From Kribbella antibiotica (GTDB lineage: Bacteria; Actinomycetota; Actinomycetes; Propionibacteriales; Kribbellaceae), in assembly GCF_004349055.1 (NCBI RefSeq), contig NZ_SMKX01000029.1:1-64000 (forward strand): 64,000 nucleotides of DNA, read 5' to 3'. Below the pieces are notes generated by a model that ran no database searches, was not told the origin of the DNA, and saw only the letters and a list, made by a program, of their open reading frames with translations. Numbering within the stretch: the first letter of the stretch is position 1; each line of letters opens with the position of its first letter. The position numbers and the translations under genes were made by a program. Positions 39,924 through 52,402 of the stretch are shown piece after piece.

Positions 39924-41075
39924 TCACCCTAGTGATGCCGCGGGCGATTCGGAGGTAGTCGTTGGCGTTCCCGGGGTCTGCGTGGGCTCCGGGCTCGGTG
40001 TGGGGGTCGGCTCTGGCGTGGGAGTTGGCTCTGGTGTGGGCGTGACCGGCGGCCTGACGGGCGTGACGGGAGGCTGGTACGGCGGTTTGGGCTGCTTCGG
40101 CGGTTCGGGCGTCTGCACCGGCGGCCGTACGACGATCGGCGGGGTGGCGGGCCGCGGCGGAATCGGCGTCGTCGGCGTCACCGGGACCGGCTGGGTCGGG
40201 GTATCGACCGGGTCGACGTTGCCCTGGTCGTCGGCCGGCGGCGTGATGACACCAACCCCGTCCGGAACCTGGACTGTCTGCTGACTGTAGGACTGCATCC
40301 AACGCAGCACCGTGGACACATACTCCATCGAGTGGTTGTAGCGCAGCACCGACTGCACCAGCCCCTGCGGATCACCCAGATTCGCACCGCCCCAGCACAG
40401 GTAGTTCCCGGCTGCGCGTGCCGCGTCGTACACGTTGTGCGGGTCCTTCAAGCCATCACCGTTGCCGTCGGCACCGAAACTCTTCCAGGTCCCGGGGATG
40501 AACTGCATCGGCCCGACAGCCCGGTCCCACTGCGCATTCCCGTCGTACCGGCCCTGATCGGTGTCGGCGATCGCCGCCATCCCTGGCCCGCCGTCCAGCA
40601 CCGGCCCAAGAATCCGACCGCGAGTGTTGCCCTGAGCATCAACCCGGCCGGCGCCCGCGTGGTCCGACTCGACTTTCCCGATCCCGGCCAGCAGCGGCCA
40701 GGTCAGATGGCAGCCAGGCATCGACACACTCAGATCCTGCGCAACCCGCTGGTACGCCGCCAGCACGGTCCCCGGGATCCCGGACGTGTCCCCCACGTTC
40801 CCCGGAATCGGCTGCACTTTCCCATCGGTCGTCCCAGTCTCCGGTACGACGGTCTCGGGCAGCTGCTGCACCGGAAGCTGCCCATCCACCCCGGGCCCCG
40901 CCGGCAACTCGGCCGGCTGGTCGATGAACCCGCTCAACGCGGTCGAGTCCACCACCAGCTGGCTCGCCGTACTGCCTCCACCCGACGCCACGACCAGCGC
41001 CATCACGCCAAGCGGCGCAGCGCATGCCCAGCCCGCGATCAGCTTGATCCGCCAACTGTCACTCCGGCTGATCAC
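39924..41075 (-). CDS. Membrane-anchored lytic murein transglycosylase
   Basis: A 383-residue protein. One N-terminal membrane segment ([18 protein letters not shown]) follows a short basic stretch. The SLT_2/MltB-like domain spans about residues 100-255: [16 protein letters not shown] carries the catalytic glutamate, and [20 protein letters not shown] is the family hallmark. The last 110 residues are a proline/threonine-rich wall-spanning tail with repeated P-x-P-x-P-T units. GTG 41075 overlaps the pstB stop as GTGA and follows AAGGACGG. It would cut peptidoglycan, perhaps to make room for the bulky anchored PstS proteins of this operon. Confidence 0.88.
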
Positions 41076-41917
41076 CCGAACCGTCCTTCCACGTAGTCCG
41101 CCGTTCGTGGGTCCTCGGGGGTGGAGAAGATTTTCTTCGTCTCGCCGGCCTCGACGATGACGCCGGGAGTCCCCTGCTCGGCCAGGAAGAACGCACAGGT
41201 CTGCGACACCCGCGCCGCCTGCTGCATGTTGTGCGTGACGATCACGATCGTCACCTCGCGCCGCAGTTCGTGGATGGTCTCCTCGATCCGCCGGGTGGAG
41301 GTCGGGTCGAGGGCCGAGCACGGCTCGTCCATCAGCAGTACATCGGGCCGTACGGCGAGCGACCGCGCGATGCACAGCCGCTGCTGCTGGCCGCCGGACA
41401 ACGCGCCGCCCGGCGAGTTCAGCCGGTCCTTGACCTCTTTCCACAACCCGGCCTTGGTCAGGCATTCCTCGATCAGCGCGGTCCGCTCACCGCCGCGGAC
41501 CCGGGTGCCGGTGAGCTTGAGCCCAGCGGTGACGTTCTCCGCGATACTCATCGCCGGGAAGGGGTTCGGCTTCTGGAACACCATGCCGATCCGCTTGCGG
41601 GTGTCGGTGATCCGCCGTACGGGCTCGTAGATGTCGTCGTCGTCGAGCAGCACCCGCCCAGCCAGCGACGCACTCGGCACCAGTTCGTGCATCCGGTTGA
41701 GGATCCGCAGAAACGTCGACTTGCCACAGCCGGACGGACCGATCAACGCCGTCACCTGCCCGGCCTCCATCTTCAGCGAGATCCCGGCCAGGACCTTGTG
41801 GCTGCCGAACCACGCCGACACCTCGTCGCTCTCCAGCACGCTTCCGCCGATGATCGCCGGCAGTTCGGCGGTCTCCGCATCCGGGGCGGTCGGCACCACA
41901 GGCAATACGGACGTCAT
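41072..41917 (-). CDS. pstB: Phosphate ABC transporter ATPase PstB
   Basis: A 281-residue ATPase. Walker A is GPSGCGKST, followed by the PstB hallmark [11 protein letters not shown]; the signature is LSGGQQQRL and Walker [29 protein letters not shown] is also PstB-specific. An N-terminal extension of about 25 residues precedes the usual start of the family. I use ATG 41917, 5 bases after AAGGATGC-type sequence. It is separated from pstC and pstA by seven kilobases, while in most bacteria the genes are contiguous as pstSCAB. Confidence 0.95.
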
Positions 41918-41944
41918 GCGCATCCTTCCGATCGGATCAGGAGC

Positions 41945-44560
41945 TCAGCCACGGCGACGGCCCCGGCGGAGCAGTCCGGCGAGCCCACGCCGTACGGGGT
42001 GACCGGGCTGGGCGATCAGGCGGATCCCCGGCGAGGCAACCCCAGCGGCGAGGCCCGCGACCAGCAGGGCGGGGAGGCCCCAGGCCAACCAGCCAAGGGA
42101 ATCGCCTTGGGTGGTGGCCGCGACCGGCTTGATGCTGCCCTGCGCCTGCGGCTTGTTCGACGGGCCGCCACTCGGCGTTGGAGCGCCAGGCGTCGTCGGG
42201 GTCGCGGTCGGCTTGTTGCCGTTGTCGCCACCACCGTCCTGTCCCGGACCGTTGGTGTTGCCGGTCGGAGTTCCGGTGGGCTTCGGCGTCGGCTTCACCT
42301 CGGGCAGCGGACCGCCCGGCGGGATCGGCGGAGTGGCCGTCTGGTTCGCGACGGCGTCGGCCACCTTGTTCGCCTGGTCCCGCATCGGCTGGGTCAGCGC
42401 GAGATAGCCGTCCGGCAACTGGCCGGCCTCCTGCCCGTACTCCTGACCCTCATGCGTGAGCCAGCGCAGGTTGTCGGCGTACTGCCTGGCCAGACCCGAC
42501 GGCAGCGACGAGGTCGGGACGGCCGCGTAGCTGATCATCGTGCCCGGGTAGCCGCGCTTGTCCATCGACTTGTAGTTGAGCGTCCAGACGCCGGACTTCT
42601 GGTCGGGGGTAGCACCGTCCAGCGCGTACCCCATCGACTCTGCGGTCGGAGCGATGTACTCGCCCTCGCTGTTGCGCAGGTTGGCGATCGGTACGCCGGT
42701 CTTCTGCAGCTCGGAAGTCGCGGACAACGTGAACATGTTGCGCGTGCCGAACTCCTGCGCAACCTCACGCTTCGGCACGATCGGAGCGTTCGGGTCGCTG
42801 GTGTTCGCGCTCTGCGGCGACTGGGTCAGCGGCCAGGCGGCCATCGTCACGTCCGCGCCGTTCGCCCACGAGTTGGTGTTCTGCGCCCACAGCGACTGCG
42901 GGGCGAAGCCGCTCCAGACACCGTTGTTCGTCGGTGCCTGCCAGCCGTCGCGCAGAGTGTAGTCGTCGGTCGGCAACTGCCAGCCGCGGTACGCCTTGTT
43001 CACCGTCATGCCCCACGGGTCGCGCTGGCCTTGCAGGAAGGCCCGCGCGGTCGGGTCCGCCCAGATCCAGCGGGTCACCGCAAGCAGGACGTCGGTACGG
43101 AACACCGGCATCGCCAGCTGGGTCCCCGGAGCGGCGTCGGCACCGGCGAAGCCCTGCGCGCCCGGATTGAGCTGCCGGAATTCCGGGTCCCGGAAGATGT
43201 TCGCCGGGTTGGTGCCGGTGTTCGGGTTCACCGCGAATCCGTTGAGCCCCTTGAACAGGCCGCCGTACGACTGCGTGAGCAGCTTGGCCACGAGCCGCTG
43301 GTTCAGGTTCAGGTCGGTGACCGTGCCCGCGACGTTGTCGACCTGCTTGTCGATCGTGTAACCGATCGCGAAGCCAGACACGGCAATCGGCGCGTACGCC
43401 GTCTTCCGATCGGTCGCTACCGGGTCATCCGCAGCGGCCGGCTCAGTGACGATCGCGCCGTCCGCGGCGTACTTCGACGGCGAGGCCGGGTCGCGCTGGC
43501 CGAGCTGACGCAGCGCGTCCGGCTCCCAAGCGCGGGTGAAGTCGAGTGCCGCCGAGCTGGACTTCTGGCAGCGGGCCGGAACCCAGCGCCGCATGACCTC
43601 GGCGGAAAGCTCGGAACCGAGGAACTTGGCCTCGTCGTTGCGGCCGGCGCAGTTCGGCAGGCTCGGGCTGAACGACAGCTTGAAGACATACCGCTCATAC
43701 CAGTTGGCCAGCAATTGCCAGTTCGCGATACCGGCCTTACCCACCTGCGCCTTGCACGCGTTGACCGTCGCCGCCGGTACGCCGTCCTCGGCAGTCAGGC
43801 ATGGCCGATCCTTGACCGGTACGACGACCAGCGAGCAATCCTTCGTCTCGGAGCAACCCAGCGACGGGTTCTCCGCGGCAGTGTTCACCCACGTCTGTAC
43901 GGCGCCAGTGCCATCCGACTGCGTCAGCCCACGCCGGAAGTTTCGCGTGCCCGGCGTGAAGTCGTCGATCGGCACGATCAGACCGCCCGAGTCCGCAGCC
44001 GCCGCCATCGGCAAGGTTGCCCAGGTCCCGTTGGCATTGTGGATGGCGTGCGGATTGCCATCGGCCTTCTTGAACGGAATCCCCAGGAACCGGCCGGTCG
44101 GGTTGGCCGGGTTCTGCCACCACTCCGACGTCTCGGTCGGCGCGTAGTGCGTGGCCCGGGCTTGCAGCTTACTGAGGCCGGACGCGTCACCGTTGGCGTT
44201 CAGCGAACCCATCCAGCAGTCCTCACGCGACGGGTTGGCACCACGGCACTGCATCACCAGCACGGGTTTGGTCACTCCGGCGCCCGGATCCGTGGCCGAC
44301 GGGTCGAGTCCCTTCCAGGACACCGTGATCGCCTGCCGGCTCAGGTCGTCGGTCCGGCTGACCGTGACATCACCGCCACCCCGGCTCAACGTCACCGGCG
44401 ACTGCGACGGGTCGGCGAACAACGCCGTGTCCGTCGGCTGCGGCGATACTGCTGCCGCATCGCGCTCGTCGACGTTCCGGGCCACCGCAGTGACCGGCGC
44501 GATCGCCAGCAGTGCCAGCACAAAGGCACCGGCAAGCAGCGTGAGTTTCCTCAGCCTCAC
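41945..44560 (-). CDS. Large PstS-like surface protein with C-terminal membrane anchor
   Basis: An 871-residue exported protein. A Sec signal peptide (KLTLLAGAFVLALLAIAPVTA) starts at GTG 44560, preceded by GGGAGGGA. The central 650 residues contain periplasmic-binding-protein-like blocks: VSGFAIGYTIDKQVDNV, LNLNQRLVAKLLTQSYGG and FRTDVLLAVTRWIWADP resemble PstS segments, with long insertions and at least ten cysteines in the first half. A proline/threonine/glycine-rich linker (about 765-830) leads to one membrane helix (LAWGLPALLVAGLAAGV) and a basic tail. No LPxTG motif is present. It is likely a membrane-tethered phosphate- or phosphoester-binding protein; the exact ligand is uncertain. 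PstB follows after 27 bases. Confidence 0.75.
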   Translation of the reverse strand: MRLRKLTLLAGAFVLALLAIAPVTAVARNVDERDAAAVSPQPTDTALFADPSQSPVTLSRGGGDVTVSRTDDLSRQAITVSWKGLDPSATDPGAGVTKPVLVMQCRGANPSREDCWMGSLNANGDASGLSKLQARATHYAPTETSEWWQNPANPTGRFLGIPFKKADGNPHAIHNANGTWATLPMAAAADSGGLIVPIDDFTPGTRNFRRGLTQSDGTGAVQTWVNTAAENPSLGCSETKDCSLVVVPVKDRPCLTAEDGVPAATVNACKAQVGKAGIANWQLLANWYERYVFKLSFSPSLPNCAGRNDEAKFLGSELSAEVMRRWVPARCQKSSSAALDFTRAWEPDALRQLGQRDPASPSKYAADGAIVTEPAAADDPVATDRKTAYAPIAVSGFAIGYTIDKQVDNVAGTVTDLNLNQRLVAKLLTQSYGGLFKGLNGFAVNPNTGTNPANIFRDPEFRQLNPGAQGFAGADAAPGTQLAMPVFRTDVLLAVTRWIWADPTARAFLQGQRDPWGMTVNKAYRGWQLPTDDYTLRDGWQAPTNNGVWSGFAPQSLWAQNTNSWANGADVTMAAWPLTQSPQSANTSDPNAPIVPKREVAQEFGTRNMFTLSATSELQKTGVPIANLRNSEGEYIAPTAESMGYALDGATPDQKSGVWTLNYKSMDKRGYPGTMISYAAVPTSSLPSGLARQYADNLRWLTHEGQEYGQEAGQLPDGYLALTQPMRDQANKVADAVANQTATPPIPPGGPLPEVKPTPKPTGTPTGNTNGPGQDGGGDNGNKPTATPTTPGAPTPSGGPSNKPQAQGSIKPVAATTQGDSLGWLAWGLPALLVAGLAAGVASPGIRLIAQPGHPVRRGLAGLLRRGRRRG

Positions 44561-44682
44561 AGGAAAATCCCTCCCCAGGATTCGGACACGACGCGATTGG
44601 CGGCACGTGCGTGTCGACGGTGTCAGCGTGTCCAGGCGGCGGGTCGCGGTGGCAGCCGCAAGGTGAACTGGACATGAAACGA

Positions 44683-44717
44683 CCCCGGTGGGCACGGAAT
44701 GTCCGTGCCCACCGGGG
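44683..44717 (-). terminator. Intrinsic terminator/attenuator inside the pst island
   Basis: CCCCGGTGGGCACGGA and TCCGTGCCCACCGGGG form a 16-bp perfect stem with a 3-base loop, 22 bases after the stop of the second PstS-like gene on the minus strand. Only a short T-rich stretch (TCGTTTC) follows. It may end transcripts carrying the small PstS, or set a ratio between it and the genes downstream. Confidence 0.8.
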
Positions 44718-44739: not shown

Positions 44740-45750
44740 TCAGAGCACGCCGCAGGTGCCACCGTTGGCGGCGTCGCCCAGCGGCAGGAAGCCGTTGGCC
44801 TTGACGACGTCACCGGCGGTGGTGGTGGCCGGGTCGGTGTCGGCGTCCTCGCAGATGTACGGGGTGCCGCCGAGCGAGGAGAAGCCGAAGCCGTCGCCGA
44901 AGACGTCGGCCAGGTTGGCCGGAACCGAGCCGCCCACGGTCTTCACGACGTTGTAGAGGTTACGGTCGTAGCTGCTGGCGCCGGCGCCGATCGCGCCGAG
45001 GAACGTGCCGCTCTTGTCGGTCGCGGAGAGCAGGTTGTAGCGGCCGACGGAGAACGGCGCGATCGCACCGGCGTTGTTCTTGACCGGGGTCGGGCTGTGC
45101 TCCTGGACCGGGCTGCCGCCGACGTTGTCCTTGACGCAGGCCGGGAGGGTGGTGGCCGAGATGCCGACCTGGGTGGCCCAGAAGGTCCGGGTGCCCGATC
45201 CGGCCTGCGGGATCAGCGGCAGGATGGCCAGGTTCGGGCCACCGACCTGGTTCCAGTTGGTGATGGTGCACTTGTAGATGCCCTCGAGCTGCGCGTCGGT
45301 CAGCGTCGCGACACCGGTGACACCGGAGTGCGCGGCCCAGCGGACGCTGTCCTTGGCGAACGGCAGGAAGGCAAGGTTGGCGCAGTCGCCGGTCGCCGGG
45401 CCACGCGAGGAGCGGGCCGCGGAGATCGACGCGTTGCCGCACAGGGCGGTGATGCCCGCGCCCGAGCCGTTCGGCCGGGTGATGGCGGTCTGGCCCGAGC
45501 GAGTGACGATGGTCGACGAACCGGTCGCGTCGAAGGTCTGGAGCTTCGCCGACGGGGTCGGCGTCCGGCCGTTGTAGACGGCAGCGAGGTCGTTGAGCAC
45601 GTTCTCGCTGGTGTCCGAGCCGACCAGGACGAGGTCGTTGCTGTCGGCGGTGAACGGCTGGTCCGCGTTGGCGGTCAGGGCGGAGGTGGCGACGAGGGCG
45701 ACCGCGGCAGCGGCGATCGCGGTGACACGGGCGGTACGGGTGAAACGCAT
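44740..45750 (-). CDS. PstS-like phosphate-binding protein (short form)
   Basis: A 336-residue secreted protein. The signal peptide (ARVTAIAAAAVALVATSALT) starts at ATG 45750, preceded by GAAGGGA. The mature part has the PstS fold: DLVLVGSDTSENVLNDLAAV first strand, LAFLPFAKDSVRWAA, LTDAQLEGIYKCTITNWNQV and IPQAGSGTRTFW, the phosphate-contacting loop (S-G-T-R). No lipobox and no membrane anchor are visible, so it is free or held by another protein. Two to three cysteine pairs may form disulfides. It is followed by a strong hairpin. Confidence 0.88.
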   Translation of the reverse strand: MRFTRTARVTAIAAAAVALVATSALTANADQPFTADSNDLVLVGSDTSENVLNDLAAVYNGRTPTPSAKLQTFDATGSSTIVTRSGQTAITRPNGSGAGITALCGNASISAARSSRGPATGDCANLAFLPFAKDSVRWAAHSGVTGVATLTDAQLEGIYKCTITNWNQVGGPNLAILPLIPQAGSGTRTFWATQVGISATTLPACVKDNVGGSPVQEHSPTPVKNNAGAIAPFSVGRYNLLSATDKSGTFLGAIGAGASSYDRNLYNVVKTVGGSVPANLADVFGDGFGFSSLGGTPYICEDADTDPATTTAGDVVKANGFLPLGDAANGGTCGVL

Positions 45751-45923
45751 CAGGGGAATTCCCTTCCTCACAAGCGCTTTCGCGAGCCGGGTGGGGTCGC
45801 GGTGCCGGTTTGCGGTCACACCCCTAATTCATCCTGCCCGGATCACCAGCAGGTCGCTGTTCGGTTAACCGGACATGACCCGCTGGCTAGCCGGAAACGT
45901 TAACTACTCAGCAAGGACGGTGT

Positions 45924-47594
45924 TCAACAGGGATAGGAGATCCCCCACGAAATGGCATTCAGGGCGTTCTGGCTACCGGTCAGACCGGCTGCCGGGTTGA
46001 AGGTGTCGGTGCCGAAGTCGGTGTCCACGTCGTCCGCCGTACCGCCGAAGCCGTCCGGACCCACGCCGTACAGGCCGGGGAAGTTGCCGTCGGCATCGAG
46101 CAGGGTGGCGGTTGTGCTGGCCGGGTCGGCCGGGAAAGCGCCGTACAGGGCACCGAGTTCGCGGCTGGCGAGGTTGCCCAGCGCGCGGCCGATGAAGGTG
46201 ATGCGGTCGGAGTTGGTGGTCAGGTAGGTGTTCAGGCTGAGCGGCCCGGCGGCTGCGCTGATCCGGTCGAGCTGGACCAGTGCGGTCTCCTCGTGGGCAA
46301 AGTTGCCCGGGTCGATCGACTGCGCGGTGCCGACCCGGCCGATGCCGGATTCGGAGGTCTTGCCACCGATCACTACACGGGTCACGTTCGGGGTGCCGAA
46401 CGTGTCGGTGCTGTCGGCGCTGGTCTTGATGCGGAGGTTGACGTCGTACCCGGCGCGGACGGCGTCGGTCCGCAGGTTCTCGCGAACGGTCGCCGTCGCC
46501 TTGGCGATCACGGCCGCTTCATCAGTTGCGGTCAAACCCCAGTTGGGCAGGTACGACGCCAGTCCGGACAGCTGCCGGACTCCGGAGCCACCGAGCGGGG
46601 CGAGGTCGATCGCGCCACCGTCGAAGTCCAGGAACACGGTCTGCGGAGCGTTGTCCACGGCCGGACGGGCGATCCCCAGGTTCAGTTGGTACGGGCCGAA
46701 GCCGTCGGTGACCGAGACGGCGTACCAGCCGGCCTGATCGGCGACGACCGCCAGATCGACGGCACCCCGCGGGAGCGTGGACGCGGCCGGCAGCTTGCCG
46801 AGACTGTGCAGATCGGTGCCCACAGCAACCGATCCGTTCGGGCGGAGCACGGTGAGACGATCACCGGAGTTGGTCAGGGCAGCACCCAGGACGTCACCGG
46901 CGGCGAGCTTGACGGCGTAGAAGTCCTTGTCGATCGGGGCTGCGGCGATCAGCAGTTCGTACTCGCCGGTGTCGGCGCCACCGAGGCCGCTGCCGGAGTT
47001 CTGCGGGTCGGCCGGGAAATCGCCGACCGCACTCTTGCCCGCGACAACGACGTAGTAGGTGCCGCTTGCGGTCAACGGGTACTGGAGTTTGCTCAGCGCA
47101 CCGGCGCCGCTGTCATCATCCGATGCCAGCAATTGCCCGGCAGCGTCGTACAGGCCGACGACGGTGTTGGTCGAGGCCGGCGAACCGTCAGTGCTGACGG
47201 TCAGGGTCTCACCGGCTTGGCCGGTCACCTGGTAGAAGTCGAAGTCGTTGGTCTTGTCGCCGAGCGGGCCATGCGGACCGTCGCCGAGGGTGCCGCTGGT
47301 CGTGACGGCTCCGCGCCCGCTGATACCGGTGGCTGTGGCCAGCGCGATCGAGCCGTTGTCCTCGCTACCGGCCGCGATCTCGGCCGGAGCCGGTGACAGC
47401 GTGCCGTTGACGGTGGTAGCGCCGTACAGGCGTTCTGCGGCGGTCCGGCTGTCGTTCTCCCCCGCTGCCGTGACCGCCTCTCGCTCTTGATGGTTGGTGG
47501 TGGTGACTTGCGCGGACGAGACCCCCGGGGTGGTGGCAAGCAGTGCGGCGACCAGCGCGGCACCTACCGCCATCCGGTGGATTCGTGCGTTCAT
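45924..47594 (-). CDS. Secreted PPC-domain protein with inactivated metzincin-like domain
   Basis: A 556-residue exported protein with a Sec signal peptide (residues 1-29). Two bacterial pre-peptidase C-terminal (PPC) domains follow: one near 115-215 (DFDFYQVTGQAGETLTVSTD, SGTYYVVVAG) and one near 220-300 (DKDFYAVKLAAGDVL). From about 315 (QTVFLDFDGGAID) it resembles zinc metallopeptidases of the metzincin type, including the late DGFGGTADDVDTDFG segment. At the place of the H-E-x-x-H-x-x-G zinc motif it reads R478-E-L-G-A-L-Y-G, so both zinc histidines are gone and it is probably a pseudoprotease. It would bind wall or protein partners outside the cell. Confidence 0.78.
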   Translation of the reverse strand: MNARIHRMAVGAALVAALLATTPGVSSAQVTTTNHQEREAVTAAGENDSRTAAERLYGATTVNGTLSPAPAEIAAGSEDNGSIALATATGISGRGAVTTSGTLGDGPHGPLGDKTNDFDFYQVTGQAGETLTVSTDGSPASTNTVVGLYDAAGQLLASDDDSGAGALSKLQYPLTASGTYYVVVAGKSAVGDFPADPQNSGSGLGGADTGEYELLIAAAPIDKDFYAVKLAAGDVLGAALTNSGDRLTVLRPNGSVAVGTDLHSLGKLPAASTLPRGAVDLAVVADQAGWYAVSVTDGFGPYQLNLGIARPAVDNAPQTVFLDFDGGAIDLAPLGGSGVRQLSGLASYLPNWGLTATDEAAVIAKATATVRENLRTDAVRAGYDVNLRIKTSADSTDTFGTPNVTRVVIGGKTSESGIGRVGTAQSIDPGNFAHEETALVQLDRISAAAGPLSLNTYLTTNSDRITFIGRALGNLASRELGALYGAFPADPASTTATLLDADGNFPGLYGVGPDGFGGTADDVDTDFGTDTFNPAAGLTGSQNALNAISWGISYPC

Positions 47595-47622: not shown

Positions 47623-48498
47623 TCAGATCAGATTCGGAAGCATGGCGGCGATCTGTTCGAACACCCGCCATGCGAGCGCGACGACAACCGGCGCGCCGAT
47701 CAGGTAGGACTCCCAGCGGCCGATCCGGGACCGGAACCAGACGAAACCGGCGGCGACCGCGATCAGTGCCTCCAGCCACAGCACCAGCGTCAGTACGCCG
47801 GACAGGTCGGTCCCGAAGGCCTGCTGGGAGTCGGAGACCCGGGACAGTCGCCCGCCCGGGTCAGGTAGTGCCGTGCCTTCGGCCAGTTCGGCGTCGATGT
47901 ACACGGTCGATGACGGCACCGGGCTGCCCTCGGCGGTGACCAGAGTCAGCCGAGATGCTCCGGCTGCCAAGACCGCGGGCAACGGGTCCCCTGCCCGACG
48001 CACGGCTTTCACGTCGTAGTTGAATCGGCCTTCGCCGGTGACGACCTCGAACCGGGTGCCAGGCACCAGCTTCGGCAAACTACGGAACGGCGCCCCAAAG
48101 GTCAGCCCGCGGCCATAGATCACCGAGACACCGGCCTGGCCGGGCAGCGGGGTGTCGGAGCGATGCCCCGGCCCGTCCCGCAGGACCGAGCCACTGGTTC
48201 CTTCGTTGATCACCTGACGCAGTTGCAACCCTGGGATGTCGAGGACCGCGACCGGCGCCCCGACGACCACGTCCGGACCCACCGGAGCGACAGCCTCGGC
48301 GAGCTGACCACGAATCTTGTCGTAGGCAACGTCCTGCGCCCGGTTGAACTGCAGTGCGCCGAGCAGCAGCACGTAGACCATGAAGGCGATGATTCCGAGC
48401 GCGAACAGCCGCGTCGCATCGGCCGCCAGCTGTGGCCGCAGGTCGAGCTCGGCCTGGACGCGGGCCTTCAACCGGGTGCTCGCGACCGCCACGCTCAC
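47623..48498 (-). CDS. Sortase-like membrane protein lacking catalytic residues
   Basis: A 291-residue protein with an N-terminal membrane helix (about 31-49), a sortase-like beta-barrel (about 75-210) and two C-terminal helices (about 230-255, 267-288). The barrel matches class E/F-type sortases: VAVLDIPGLQLRQVINEG, LRDGPGHRSDTPLPG, then GVSVIYGRGLTFGAPFRSLP and RLTLVTAEG. Aligned on G-A-P-F and L-T-L-V-T, the catalytic histidine is R130 and the catalytic cysteine is A189, and the arginine strand reads STVYIDAEL. All three catalytic positions are therefore substituted. It overlaps the PstS-TM gene by 4 bases, so it probably binds or positions that protein. Confidence 0.78.
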   Translation of the reverse strand: MSVAVASTRLKARVQAELDLRPQLAADATRLFALGIIAFMVYVLLLGALQFNRAQDVAYDKIRGQLAEAVAPVGPDVVVGAPVAVLDIPGLQLRQVINEGTSGSVLRDGPGHRSDTPLPGQAGVSVIYGRGLTFGAPFRSLPKLVPGTRFEVVTGEGRFNYDVKAVRRAGDPLPAVLAAGASRLTLVTAEGSPVPSSTVYIDAELAEGTALPDPGGRLSRVSDSQQAFGTDLSGVLTLVLWLEALIAVAAGFVWFRSRIGRWESYLIGAPVVVALAWRVFEQIAAMLPNLI

Positions 48499-50168
48499 TG
48501 ACTGGCCCGCTTCTTCTGCAGATACCGCGAGACGAGCGTCGGCACCAGCAGGACGAGCAGGATCTCCACAGCGGTCAGTACGCCGAGGTTGCGCAACATG
48601 CCGTTGCCGCCCCGATCGCCGTTCAGCTCGGTGACATTGCCGGTCGGCTGGTAAGCACCGTTGGTGTTCCCGCCGGCGTTGATCACCTGGCCGGTCTCGG
48701 GATCGATCGCCGTACTGGGGCCGGTCGTCGGTTGCCCGGTCGTCGGCTGGTTCCCGTTCTGGTTCGGCTGACCGTTGTTGTCGCCGTTGCCGTTGCCGGT
48801 CCCGTTCCCCGTGTTGTTCCCGTTGTTGTCGCCGTTACCGTTGCCGTTGTTGTTCCCGTTGTTGTTGCCGTTGTTGTTGCCTGGGCTGTTCGGCTTGCCG
48901 CTGACGCACTTGCCGCCGACCGCCGGGCCCGCGCCGTCGCGATCACAGGCCAGCGGCTGCGGGGCGATATCGGCCAGCACGTTCCGGTTCAGGTTCTTCC
49001 CGTCGAACGTCGGGTTCCCGCATTTCTTGATGTCGGTCGCCGTCGACGGGCTGCCCGGCACTTTGGCCACCTGCTGGAACGCCGAGCGGACGAGGTTGAG
49101 CGGTAGCGGCGAATACCCGAGCGGCGCCGCCTTTTGTTGCCCTTGGCACAGGAAGTACGACGCGAAGTCCGCGAGCGTCTGGCCCTTCGACGGGCTGAGG
49201 TTCGACGTCGGCAGGATCATGTAGGAGTACGACGACAGCGGGTACGTCCGCGGGTCCGGGTTGTTGTAGACCCCGGGCAGTTTCTGCGTGAGGTAGTTCG
49301 GGCCGGGCGTGGTCTCGATCTGCGCCTTCGTGAGCGCCACGGCGGTGTTGTAGGCCGTCGGCGACGTGTAGTAGCCGGCGTTGTTGCGGACCTTGGCCAC
49401 CGGGTACGACTTACCCAGCGCGTACGAGTACTCGACGTACCCGATCGCACCGTCGGCGTAGCTCGCGGAGATGTAGCCGGCCATCTGGCTCGACCCGCCC
49501 TGCGCCTTCACCCCGGCGAAGTTCTTGGTCGGGAAGTACGACGTCTGCCCACACGACCGGCCCTGCGTCGAGCGGCAGAACGCGTCCCACAACGGCTTGT
49601 GCTGAGTGTTCATCCAGATCGTGAACTGTGCCGTCGTACCGGAGCCGTCCGAGCGCACCACCGGGATGATCTTCTTACTGGGCAGGGCCTTCCCGTTGTT
49701 GTCCCGGGTGACCTGTGGGTCGCTCCAGTTGGTGATCTTGCCGGTGAAGATCTTCGTGATCGTGTCACCGGACAGCCGCAGGTCCTGGTACAGCTGACCC
49801 CGGATCCGGATCTGATACATGAACGCGGTGCCACCGGCAACGATCGGCATGTAGGCGAAGTCCCGGCCGGCGGAGGTGTCGGAGGCGCCGGTGAGCGGGT
49901 CGACACCCTGGTACGGGATCTCGCTGACCGCGAAGTCGACCAGCTTGTTGGCGAAGTCGAGCCGGCCCCGGGACGAGCCGCCCCCGCCGTACTCGACCCG
50001 CATCCCGCGCGGCTCGACGTCGCGGATCCACTGGTCCAGCGCGTTCTGCGACCAGGTCGACCCGGTGCCGTAGATCGGCGCGTACGCCGTACTGCCGGCG
50101 GCCGCGGGCAGGGCCGCGAACGCGATCGTCAGCAGCAGGGCGACCACGAAGGCGCTGAGCCGTCGCAT
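48495..50168 (-). CDS. pstS: Phosphate-binding protein PstS with Asn/Gly linker and C-terminal anchor
   Basis: A 557-residue protein. Signal peptide MRRLSAFVVALLLTIAFAAL starts at ATG 50168, after AAAGGA. The PstS domain covers about residues 28-400, with YGTGSTWSQNALDQW, DFAVSEIPYQGVD, KIFTGKITNWSDP, PVVRSDGSGTTAQF (phosphate loop) and GAIGYVEYSYAL. A linker of asparagine-glycine repeats (about 425-490) leads to a membrane helix (LGVLTAVEILLVLLVPTLV) and a KK tail. The anchor replaces the usual lipid. It lies directly after pstA and overlaps the dead sortase gene by 4 bases. Confidence 0.92.
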   Translation of the reverse strand: MRRLSAFVVALLLTIAFAALPAAAGSTAYAPIYGTGSTWSQNALDQWIRDVEPRGMRVEYGGGGSSRGRLDFANKLVDFAVSEIPYQGVDPLTGASDTSAGRDFAYMPIVAGGTAFMYQIRIRGQLYQDLRLSGDTITKIFTGKITNWSDPQVTRDNNGKALPSKKIIPVVRSDGSGTTAQFTIWMNTQHKPLWDAFCRSTQGRSCGQTSYFPTKNFAGVKAQGGSSQMAGYISASYADGAIGYVEYSYALGKSYPVAKVRNNAGYYTSPTAYNTAVALTKAQIETTPGPNYLTQKLPGVYNNPDPRTYPLSSYSYMILPTSNLSPSKGQTLADFASYFLCQGQQKAAPLGYSPLPLNLVRSAFQQVAKVPGSPSTATDIKKCGNPTFDGKNLNRNVLADIAPQPLACDRDGAGPAVGGKCVSGKPNSPGNNNGNNNGNNNGNGNGDNNGNNTGNGTGNGNGDNNGQPNQNGNQPTTGQPTTGPSTAIDPETGQVINAGGNTNGAYQPTGNVTELNGDRGGNGMLRNLGVLTAVEILLVLLVPTLVSRYLQKKRASQ

Positions 50169-50196
50169 CGACTGTCCTTTCATCGGTGCAGGCCTT

Positions 50197-51402
50197 TCAT
50201 CGGGCGCCGGACCGGCCACGACCGGCCAACCAGCGGGAGAACGCGAACAGCAGCAGGACCAGCACCAGCAGCAGCGCGGCAGCGCCGAACGCCCGGCTGA
50301 TGTAGTTGTTCTCCGGCGACTGCGACATCTTGAAGGTGAACAACGGCAGCGAGGTCATCGGGCCGGAGAACGGGTTGAGATTCAGGTACGTCGTATAGCC
50401 GGCGGTCAGCAGCACCGGCGAGGTTTCGCCGATCCCACGAGCCGTGCCGAGCACCAACGCGGTCGCGAGACCTGGCCGGGCGGTCGGCAGCACCACAGAC
50501 CAGACCGTGCGCCACTGGGTCGCACCGAGCGCCAGCGACGCCTCCCGCAGTCCGCTCGGAACCAGCCGCAGGACGACCTCGGAGGAGCGCGCGATGATCG
50601 GCAGCATCATCACCGAGATCGCCATCGCGGCGACGAAGCCGGACAGCCGCATCCCGAAGCTGATCAGCAGGACGACGTACGCGAACAAGCCCGCCACGAT
50701 CGACGGGAGCGCGGTCATCGCCTCGACCACCGACCGCACCAGCCGGGACGCGCGGCCACCGACCTCGGTGAGGTAGACCGCGCACAGGACGCCGAGCGGC
50801 AGCGTGACGGCGATCGCCATCGTGATCTGGATCAGGGTCCCGGCGAGCGCGTGCAGTGCACCACCGGTACTGAGCGGCTCGAGCGGGCCCGCCGTACGGA
50901 GATCTTGGGAGAAGAAGTTCCAGTGCATCAACGCGGGGGCGCCGCGGATCAGCGTGTAGCCGATCACGGTGGCGAGCGCGATGCCCACCAAAGCGGCTCC
51001 GCTGTGGGCCAGCAGGACGGCGAATCGGTCTGCAAGCACCACGCGTCCGCGCCGCAGGCCGGTCAGGAGCAGGTAGAACGCGGTGAAGCTCAGCCACCAG
51101 CAGACGATGAAACCGAGGGTGCCTTCGGTAGGCAGGATGCGGCTGTACAACACCCACGTCAGCGACAGCCCGGCCAGGGCCGCACCTCCGAGGCTCGCAC
51201 GATCCTGTACGTCGACTACGCGGAGCTTGCGGCGTTCCGGCTCCGGCGGGGGCTCGACCTCGATCGGCTCCACCGGCTCGATCGGGTCCGGCGGGTCGAT
51301 CGGCGTCCGGCTGGAGGGCAGGGGCGGCAGGAACGGACTTGCACCGTTGCTGCCGGGCCGCGGTGGTTCGTAGCGGGGACCCGTCGAGGGCAGTGTCCTC
51401 AT
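50197..51402 (-). CDS. pstA: Phosphate ABC transporter permease PstA
   Basis: About 401 residues. The first 80 are a proline-rich cytoplasmic extension, which is unusual for PstA. After two or three extra N-terminal helices the core has six, with MTALPSIVAGLFAYVVLLIS, the EAA loop SGLREASLALGATQWRTVW and LGTARGIGETSPVLLTAGYT, both PstA marks. ATG 51402 lies 8 bases after the pstC stop. It forms the channel with PstC. Confidence 0.93.
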   Translation of the reverse strand: MRTLPSTGPRYEPPRPGSNGASPFLPPLPSSRTPIDPPDPIEPVEPIEVEPPPEPERRKLRVVDVQDRASLGGAALAGLSLTWVLYSRILPTEGTLGFIVCWWLSFTAFYLLLTGLRRGRVVLADRFAVLLAHSGAALVGIALATVIGYTLIRGAPALMHWNFFSQDLRTAGPLEPLSTGGALHALAGTLIQITMAIAVTLPLGVLCAVYLTEVGGRASRLVRSVVEAMTALPSIVAGLFAYVVLLISFGMRLSGFVAAMAISVMMLPIIARSSEVVLRLVPSGLREASLALGATQWRTVWSVVLPTARPGLATALVLGTARGIGETSPVLLTAGYTTYLNLNPFSGPMTSLPLFTFKMSQSPENNYISRAFGAAALLLVLVLLLFAFSRWLAGRGRSGAR

Positions 51403-51409
51403 GGTGGGT

Positions 51410-52402
51410 TCAGATCTCCGTTCCGGCGCCACTGCGGCTGCGGGCGACGACGAAGCCCGCGATCAGGTTGACGATGAGCGTGATGACGAACAGAACCAGC
51501 CCGGCCGCCATCAGGGCGTTCAGCTGGGATCCCTGGGCCTCGCCGTACCGGAGCGCGATCATCGACGAGATCGTGATCGAGCCGGACTGCAGGACGTGCC
51601 AGTTGATCTCGAACAACGGCGACACGATCATCACCACCGCGATTGTTTCGCCGAGCGCACGGCCGAGGCCGAGCATCGTGCCGCCGATGATGCCGCCGCG
51701 ACCGAACGGCAGCACGACGGCCCGGACGACACCCCAACTGGTCGAGCCGAGGGCCAGCGCCGCCTCACGCTCGCCGCGCGGAGTCTGTTCGAAGACCTCC
51801 CGCATCACCGCGCAGGCGATCGGCATCACCATCATCGCGACCACGATTCCGGCGATGAACGCCGACGACGCGTACGTCGCACCGTCGAACACGGCCGCGT
51901 CCGGGTCAGTGTCGACCTTGAAGATCGGAATCCAGCCGAAGAAGTCGGTGATCCAGCGCGAGACGTGGATGATCCACGGCTGCAGCAGGAAGAACCCCCA
52001 CAGGCCGTAGACGATCGAGGGCACCGCGACCATCAGGTCGATCACCGCTACCAAGCTCTTCTTCAACCCGCGCGGCGCCCATTCGGTGATGTAGAGCGAC
52101 GTTGCGACCGCCAGCGGGAACGAGATGGCGATCGCGATCGTGGCGATCACCACCGTCCCGAACAGAATCGCCGCGACACCGATCTGGTTCGCCTCGGGCT
52201 GCCAGGACTGCTCGGTGAAGAACTTCCAGCCATACGTCTGCAGCGTCGGTTTTGCCTGGTATGCCAGGAAAATCCCGATCCCGCCGGTGATCAGCAGCAC
52301 CAGCCCGCCACCTCCGCGGGCGATCAGCCGGAAGATCGTGTCGGACGGCGCGAGCGACGACCGCAGTTTGCGCGGTGGTGGCTCGACGGTCGAATCGCTC
52401 AC
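51410..52402 (-). CDS. pstC: Phosphate ABC transporter permease PstC
   Basis: A 330-residue permease with six core helices. VAVPSIVYGLWGFFLLQPWI, the EAA loop RGEREAALALGSTSWGVVRA and LGRALGETIAVVMIVSP are PstC signatures, and IGVAAILFGTVVIATIAIAI starts the core. It overlaps the small DUF1508-like gene by 4 bases (ATGA). With a PHO box upstream it is expected to be induced by phosphate limitation. Confidence 0.95.
   Translation of the reverse strand: MSDSTVEPPPRKLRSSLAPSDTIFRLIARGGGGLVLLITGGIGIFLAYQAKPTLQTYGWKFFTEQSWQPEANQIGVAAILFGTVVIATIAIAISFPLAVATSLYITEWAPRGLKKSLVAVIDLMVAVPSIVYGLWGFFLLQPWIIHVSRWITDFFGWIPIFKVDTDPDAAVFDGATYASSAFIAGIVVAMMVMPIACAVMREVFEQTPRGEREAALALGSTSWGVVRAVVLPFGRGGIIGGTMLGLGRALGETIAVVMIVSPLFEINWHVLQSGSITISSMIALRYGEAQGSQLNALMAAGLVLFVITLIVNLIAGFVVARSRSGAGTEI

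Follow-up and report, generated by a model that had tools for sequence, protein, structure and literature searches.

Sortases are enzymes that staple proteins to the cell wall, and the locus studied here raises the question of what a protein with the fold of such an enzyme may do once its catalytic residues are gone and its gene is embedded in an operon for a phosphate-type transporter. The gene, called pSrt (pseudo-sortase) below, lies in the window, i.e. the whole stretch of 64 000 nucleotides of Kribbella antibiotica DNA that was analysed. Its ORF was also called independently by a GC3-based gene caller. A preliminary description had singled it out as a sortase-like gene overlapping an anchored pstS; going beyond that description, we find that it is on the minus strand and is part of a conserved multi-gene module. 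The overlap itself is of 4 nt, between the pSrt start and the pstS stop codon (GTGA junction), and the pstS product does carry a C-terminal TM segment.

Whether the product is a sortase at all was to be decided by structure prediction, which the preliminary description had named as the test that could refute the proposed fold. The AlphaFold2 model, built on a 30-sequence alignment, has a mean pLDDT of 90; in it, a sortase barrel is preceded by one N-terminal helix and followed by two helices at the C-terminus. All of the best 50 Foldseek matches to this model are sortases; the top one by E-value is the class D protein 4d70, and the class E structure 5go6 matches with a TM-score of 0.73 (target length) and an rmsd of 2.9 Å. 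The Pfam Sortase profile PF04203 recognizes the protein (2.5e-12, 47.1 bits for a curated cut-off of 26.6), so that both the profile and the beta-barrel criterion for membership in the sortase superfamily are met. The fold was thus borne out, as were the two C-terminal membrane helices described as absent from usual sortases: helix 235-259 is clearly hydrophobic, and helix 261-285, weaker in the window protein (about 1.5 on the Kyte-Doolittle scale), is conserved in position in the family. Assignment to a sortase class is another matter. The protein scores far below the NCBIfam cut-offs for sortase classes, the nearest being class E (NF033747, 51 bits versus 160); all 30 members of the family alignment match NF033747 at E <= 0.001, the comparison with the cut-off having been made for the window protein only. 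By sequence, class E and related sortases are the closest solved structures.

When pSrt is aligned to class E sortases on the GAPF and LTLVT landmarks, the catalytic His, Cys and Arg fall on R130, A189 and T198. In S. coelicolor SrtE1 the triad is made of His251, Cys320 and Arg329 (PMC5148588). It had been claimed that all three positions are replaced and that the barrel motifs around them are well kept. Both points hold: the LPGQ.G, YGAPF and LTLVT landmarks are retained, and the three positions are non-catalytic across the 113 distinct homologs aligned (Table 1), with a His at 130 in 4/113. An active comparison set of 20 class E-like sortases, the nearest active group, aligned by the same method, keeps H, C and R in 20/20. 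A shifted alignment that would restore Cys and His, the second outcome that could have overturned the claim, was considered and ruled out, since no homolog among the 113 has a Cys in residues 60-235. An Arg is found at position 200, two residues past the lost catalytic Arg, in 46/117 rows. Because the homolog search behind part of the 113 used a pattern that included A189, the residues were recounted on loci retrieved by whole-protein search: these 38 distinct members have R36/K2 at 130 and A30/S6/V1/G1 at 189, and no Cys. The catalytic His-Cys-Arg criterion of a class E enzyme is therefore not met, and pSrt is a pseudoenzyme of the sortase superfamily rather than a class E sortase; the absence of cleavage activity is inferred, without biochemistry.

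The loss of the triad is the property of a clade. In a tree computed after removal of the three catalytic columns, the inactive proteins all fall on one side of a single branch (support 100/100), and their stem measures 1.42 changes per column. A class-wide search gave the same separation by score: full-length members of the pSrt family reach at least about 145 bits (partial genes at contig edges excepted), true sortases at most about 107, and nothing lies between. More than 100 homologs were found, across many families, with no annotated plasmid copy among them. Residues conserved in the inactive clade only include R63, R113, R114, D115, S125, R130, G155-Q156-G157, G170-D171 and D202. Compared with three Kribbella-type relatives, pSrt has a dN/dS of about 0.21-0.26, similar to that of the adjoining pstS and above that of pstC or pstB. 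It is a real gene under purifying selection. The preliminary description had gone one step further and suggested selection for binding; the selection is there, in the dN/dS and in the clade-specific residues, while binding remains an inference, with no ligand or partner shown.

The genes around pSrt are listed in Table 1. Homologs of PstC, PstA, PstB and PstS are present together, which satisfies the criterion for a Pst operon, and the PstB-type ATPases are well preserved (Walker A in 110, LSGG in 112 and DEP in 115 of 115 homologs). The receptor next to pSrt, PstS1, does not meet the equivalog criterion of TIGR00975 (190 bits, 192 in the genome search, for a cut-off of 205), and the same genome carries elsewhere a separate canonical PstS (C320, 289 bits) and PhoU (C190). 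The R-x-D-G-S-G-T oxyanion-site consensus is found in 71/100 PstS1 relatives. The large protein BIG, of a family 800-900 residues long, has no Pfam match; its AlphaFold2 model resembles PstS3 of M. tuberculosis (4lvq, TMt 0.81). BIG seems to represent a PstS-type family that has gone unrecognised and that belongs with the pSrt module. Directly after pstB, at 39924-41465, there is an exported lytic-transglycosylase-like protein, relatives of which occur near the operon in 43 loci.

Table 1. Features of the pSrt gene and of the surrounding operon (positions in the window)
Feature	Position	Strand	Remarks
pstC permease	51410..52402	-	TIGR02138 262 bits, above cut-off
pstA permease	50197..51432	-	TIGR00974 217 bits, above cut-off
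PstS1, PstS-family receptor with long linker and C-terminal TM	48495..50219	-	start possibly 50168; PF12849 8.3e-45
DPETG in low-complexity PstS1 linker	48690..48704	-	64 residues from C-terminus
pSrt, pseudo-sortase	47623..48498	-	291 aa; N-terminal TM, sortase barrel, two C-terminal helices
N-terminal TM segment of pSrt	48349..48408	-	residues about 31-50; hydropathy peak 2.68; helix in model
Sortase barrel	47878..48255	-	residues 82-207; AlphaFold2 strands, pLDDT mostly >90; Foldseek 5go6
R130 (catalytic His position)	48109..48111	-	R104/K5/H4 of 113 homologs; H in 20/20 active
A189 (catalytic Cys position)	47932..47934	-	A94/S14/G3/V2 of 113 homologs; C in 20/20 active
T198 (catalytic Arg position)	47905..47907	-	V/T/A/I/L in homologs; R in 20/20 active
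Two C-terminal membrane helices and conserved LPNL C-terminus of pSrt	47644..47796	-	residues 235-259 and 261-285
Exported PPC-domain protein	45924..47594	-	PF04151 1.3e-10
S2, second PstS-like exported protein	44740..45819	-	PF12849 2.2e-17
BIG, large PstS-fold protein with C-terminal TM	41945..44695	-	start possibly 44560; 872-916 aa; AlphaFold2 and conserved family
pstB ATPase	41072..41923	-	ABC ATPase sequence

Homologs of pSrt had been expected beside pstS, and they are, in a conserved operon. In nearly all loci read, the genes follow the order pstC-pstA-PstS1-BIG-(variable genes)-pSrt-pstB or are rearranged relative to it, with pSrt co-directional with PstS1 and BIG. Among 395 genomes of the class, 54 carry pSrt and 54 BIG, and 50 carry the two together (p = 1e-53); the module-type PstS1 is present in 56 of them, almost the same ones. 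All 51 pSrt copies that share a contig with BIG are on the same strand and within 7.4 kb of it. Genomes with BIG and without pSrt have fragmentary contigs at the expected place: in L214 the contig breaks off within pSrt, leaving only its start visible, and in L213 and L215 it ends near the expected site.

The variable genes differ between taxa. In Kribbella-type loci, the exported PPC-domain protein, found in 8 loci all of this type, stands where other taxa have LAxTG or Ig-like genes. The cluster of these other taxa holds LAxTG or LPxTG, Ig-like, WxL-like and WxLIP-like proteins. A Kribbella-type operon is also present in L066 (NZ_JAAGLV010000002.1), labelled 'Streptomyces sp. SID13031', which may be misnamed.

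Phosphate regulation was approached through PHO-box-like sites, taken as GTTCACC repeats at 11-nt spacing with <= 3 of 14 mismatches, which matches the published repeat (PMC6283541). Such repeats precede pstC in 36/74 loci, as compared to 77/1703 other genes. In Nocardioidaceae-type loci the figures are 23/27 and 15/387, and eight of these 15 other sites belong to S2 of the same operon. Direct repeats of this kind stand about 100 nt upstream of pstC (L113, L079, L145 and other Nocardioidaceae-type loci). In the window, the region ahead of pstC gave no such site, the best candidate having 5 of 14 mismatches, which is the background level. The oxyanion consensus and the PHO-box-like sites are only indirect hints that the operon transports phosphate.

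A DPxTG motif recurs in the tail of PstS1: it is present in 86/100 tails, where 1.2 would be expected from shuffles. At first sight it could pass for an LPXTG-like ligand of the former substrate groove, but this is only a weak idea, given that Cys-flanked versions occur in some members (CEPDTGVC, CDADTGIC), suggesting a beta-hairpin, and that 14/100 tails lack the motif. As far as the sequence allows us to judge, the element is most likely such a hairpin and not a groove-binding peptide. It remains a candidate docking site for an unidentified partner. Since the PstS1 paralogs outside the module (L209-L211) have neither DPxTG nor the TM tail, they cannot separate one from the other.

What, then, is pSrt doing? 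We propose, with a probability of about one half, that it is a structural adaptor which has the sortase fold but no catalysis, and which belongs to a Pst-type ABC import complex with several receptors and under phosphate regulation. The proposal builds on the observed fold, the lost triad, the single clade, the purifying selection, the obligate operon partnership and the PHO-box-like sites of one group of relatives; that pSrt docks a partner, which partner this is and that it serves to capture phosphate are all inferred, there being no interaction, transport or expression data. Three membrane helices would anchor the barrel on the outside of the membrane, where it might dock, via the remodelled ex-substrate groove or nearby clade-specific conserved Arg residues, either the C-terminal stalks of the membrane-anchored PstS-fold receptors or partners anchored in the wall, in the vicinity of the PstCA permease. 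Genetic linkage, however, is silent on which partner pSrt contacts, and the proposal also has against it the lack of a PHO-box-like site ahead of pstC in the window and the DPxTG element, which is absent from part of the PstS1 tails and resembles a hairpin more than a groove ligand. A bolder form, which we put forward tentatively and at somewhat less than even odds, makes pSrt an obligate structural subunit of a Pst system of Actinomycetota that has not been described before, one with multiple receptors and with anchors in both membrane and wall; a fold used for wall anchoring would here have been co-opted to place several receptors of the PstS type above a single permease.

At this point other explanations have to be weighed. 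The one that survives best, though we consider it unlikely, is that pSrt binds or senses a ligand, R113, R114, R130, R167 and R168 forming an anion site that would hold phosphate, a polymer bearing phosphate groups or the headgroup of a lipid, while the membrane anchor of three helices would relay this to the transporter. Conserved Arg and Asp residues specific to the clade, an invariant R167, R or K at position 130 in 109/113 homologs, and the Pst context with its PHO-box-like sites would all fit; but clustering of the Arg residues in space has not been shown, and four members have a His at 130. Another possibility is that pSrt binds the LAxTG or LPxTG proteins of the operon, leaves them uncut, and either passes them on to an active sortase or withholds them from it. 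Such a protein is indeed encoded immediately upstream of pSrt in many members, and 17 loci have a second sortase-like gene, most of them with GH..C kept. We nevertheless find this improbable, as pSrt occurs without any LPxTG-type gene in the operon in large groups, among them the Kribbella window and the majority of Nocardioides loci, and the residues around the former active site are changed. That the barrel is still an enzyme, working through residues other than those of sortases, has little in its favour beyond the well-kept barrel, the invariant R167 and the conservation of T188 and H112: position 189 offers no conserved nucleophile (A/S/G/V/T), and H112 and T188 are conserved in active class E sortases too, where they lie outside the triad. 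Finally, the loss of all three catalytic residues could suggest a decaying, functionless relic of a class E sortase, a reading that is hardly tenable because selection (dN/dS) and distribution (>100 homologs in many families, obligate operon position) contradict it. The idea of a non-catalytic adaptor remains the one that we prefer. In many soil actinobacteria, it seems, the sortase fold now serves a transport or surface complex as a component without enzymatic activity.

Among known systems, class E sortases (SrtE1, 5cuw; S. avermitilis SrtE, 5go5/5go6) are the closest by sequence and a good structural match, with the barrel, the N-terminal TM and the LPGQ.G, YGAPF and LTLVT motifs in common. 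In contrast to them, pSrt has all triad residues replaced, two extra C-terminal helices and a fixed place in a Pst operon. The barrel is likewise present in sortases of classes C and D (e.g. 4d70), and class C sortases also carry a C-terminal membrane helix, but pSrt lacks their catalytic triad and matches them less well in sequence. With the PstSCAB phosphate ABC transporter the operon has in common the PstC, PstA, PstB and PstS homologs, the oxyanion consensus of PstS1 and, in some members, the PHO-box-like sites; it differs in having the pseudo-sortase and three proteins that are PstS-like or have the PstS fold, two of which carry a C-terminal TM.

Sortases are studied as enzymes. The clade described here has given up catalysis as a whole while retaining the fold, and its genes have become firmly bound to an operon for a phosphate-type transporter. 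Sortases go unmentioned in a review of how actinobacteria transport phosphate (PMC7866108), and in Actinoplanes missouriensis all five sortase candidates were studied functionally and assigned to classes E and F (PMC13251363). The term pseudosortase, or similar ones, was not found in the papers searched; these were open-licence papers only, so this absence is no proof. If our interpretation is true, the label 'sortase' on these genes is functionally misleading, the family provides a natural non-catalytic sortase for studies of the groove, and it hints at an unstudied uptake or surface system in common soil bacteria.

Two observations concern the neighbourhood of the module. The second sortase-like gene (L082, L161, L124 and 14 other loci) lies downstream of pstB, and its carriers are Streptomyces and Jiangella-type genomes. 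Gene sets resembling the WxL, WxL-interacting protein and small LPxTG clusters of Firmicutes (PMC1534035) occur in many relatives of the operon; here, they are found in Actinomycetota and linked to a Pst operon, their Pfam matches are weak and below cut-off, and they do not occur in the window. In L075, L158, L174, L160 and others, the WxL-like and WxL-interacting-protein-like genes, and in some loci LPxTG genes, cluster together.
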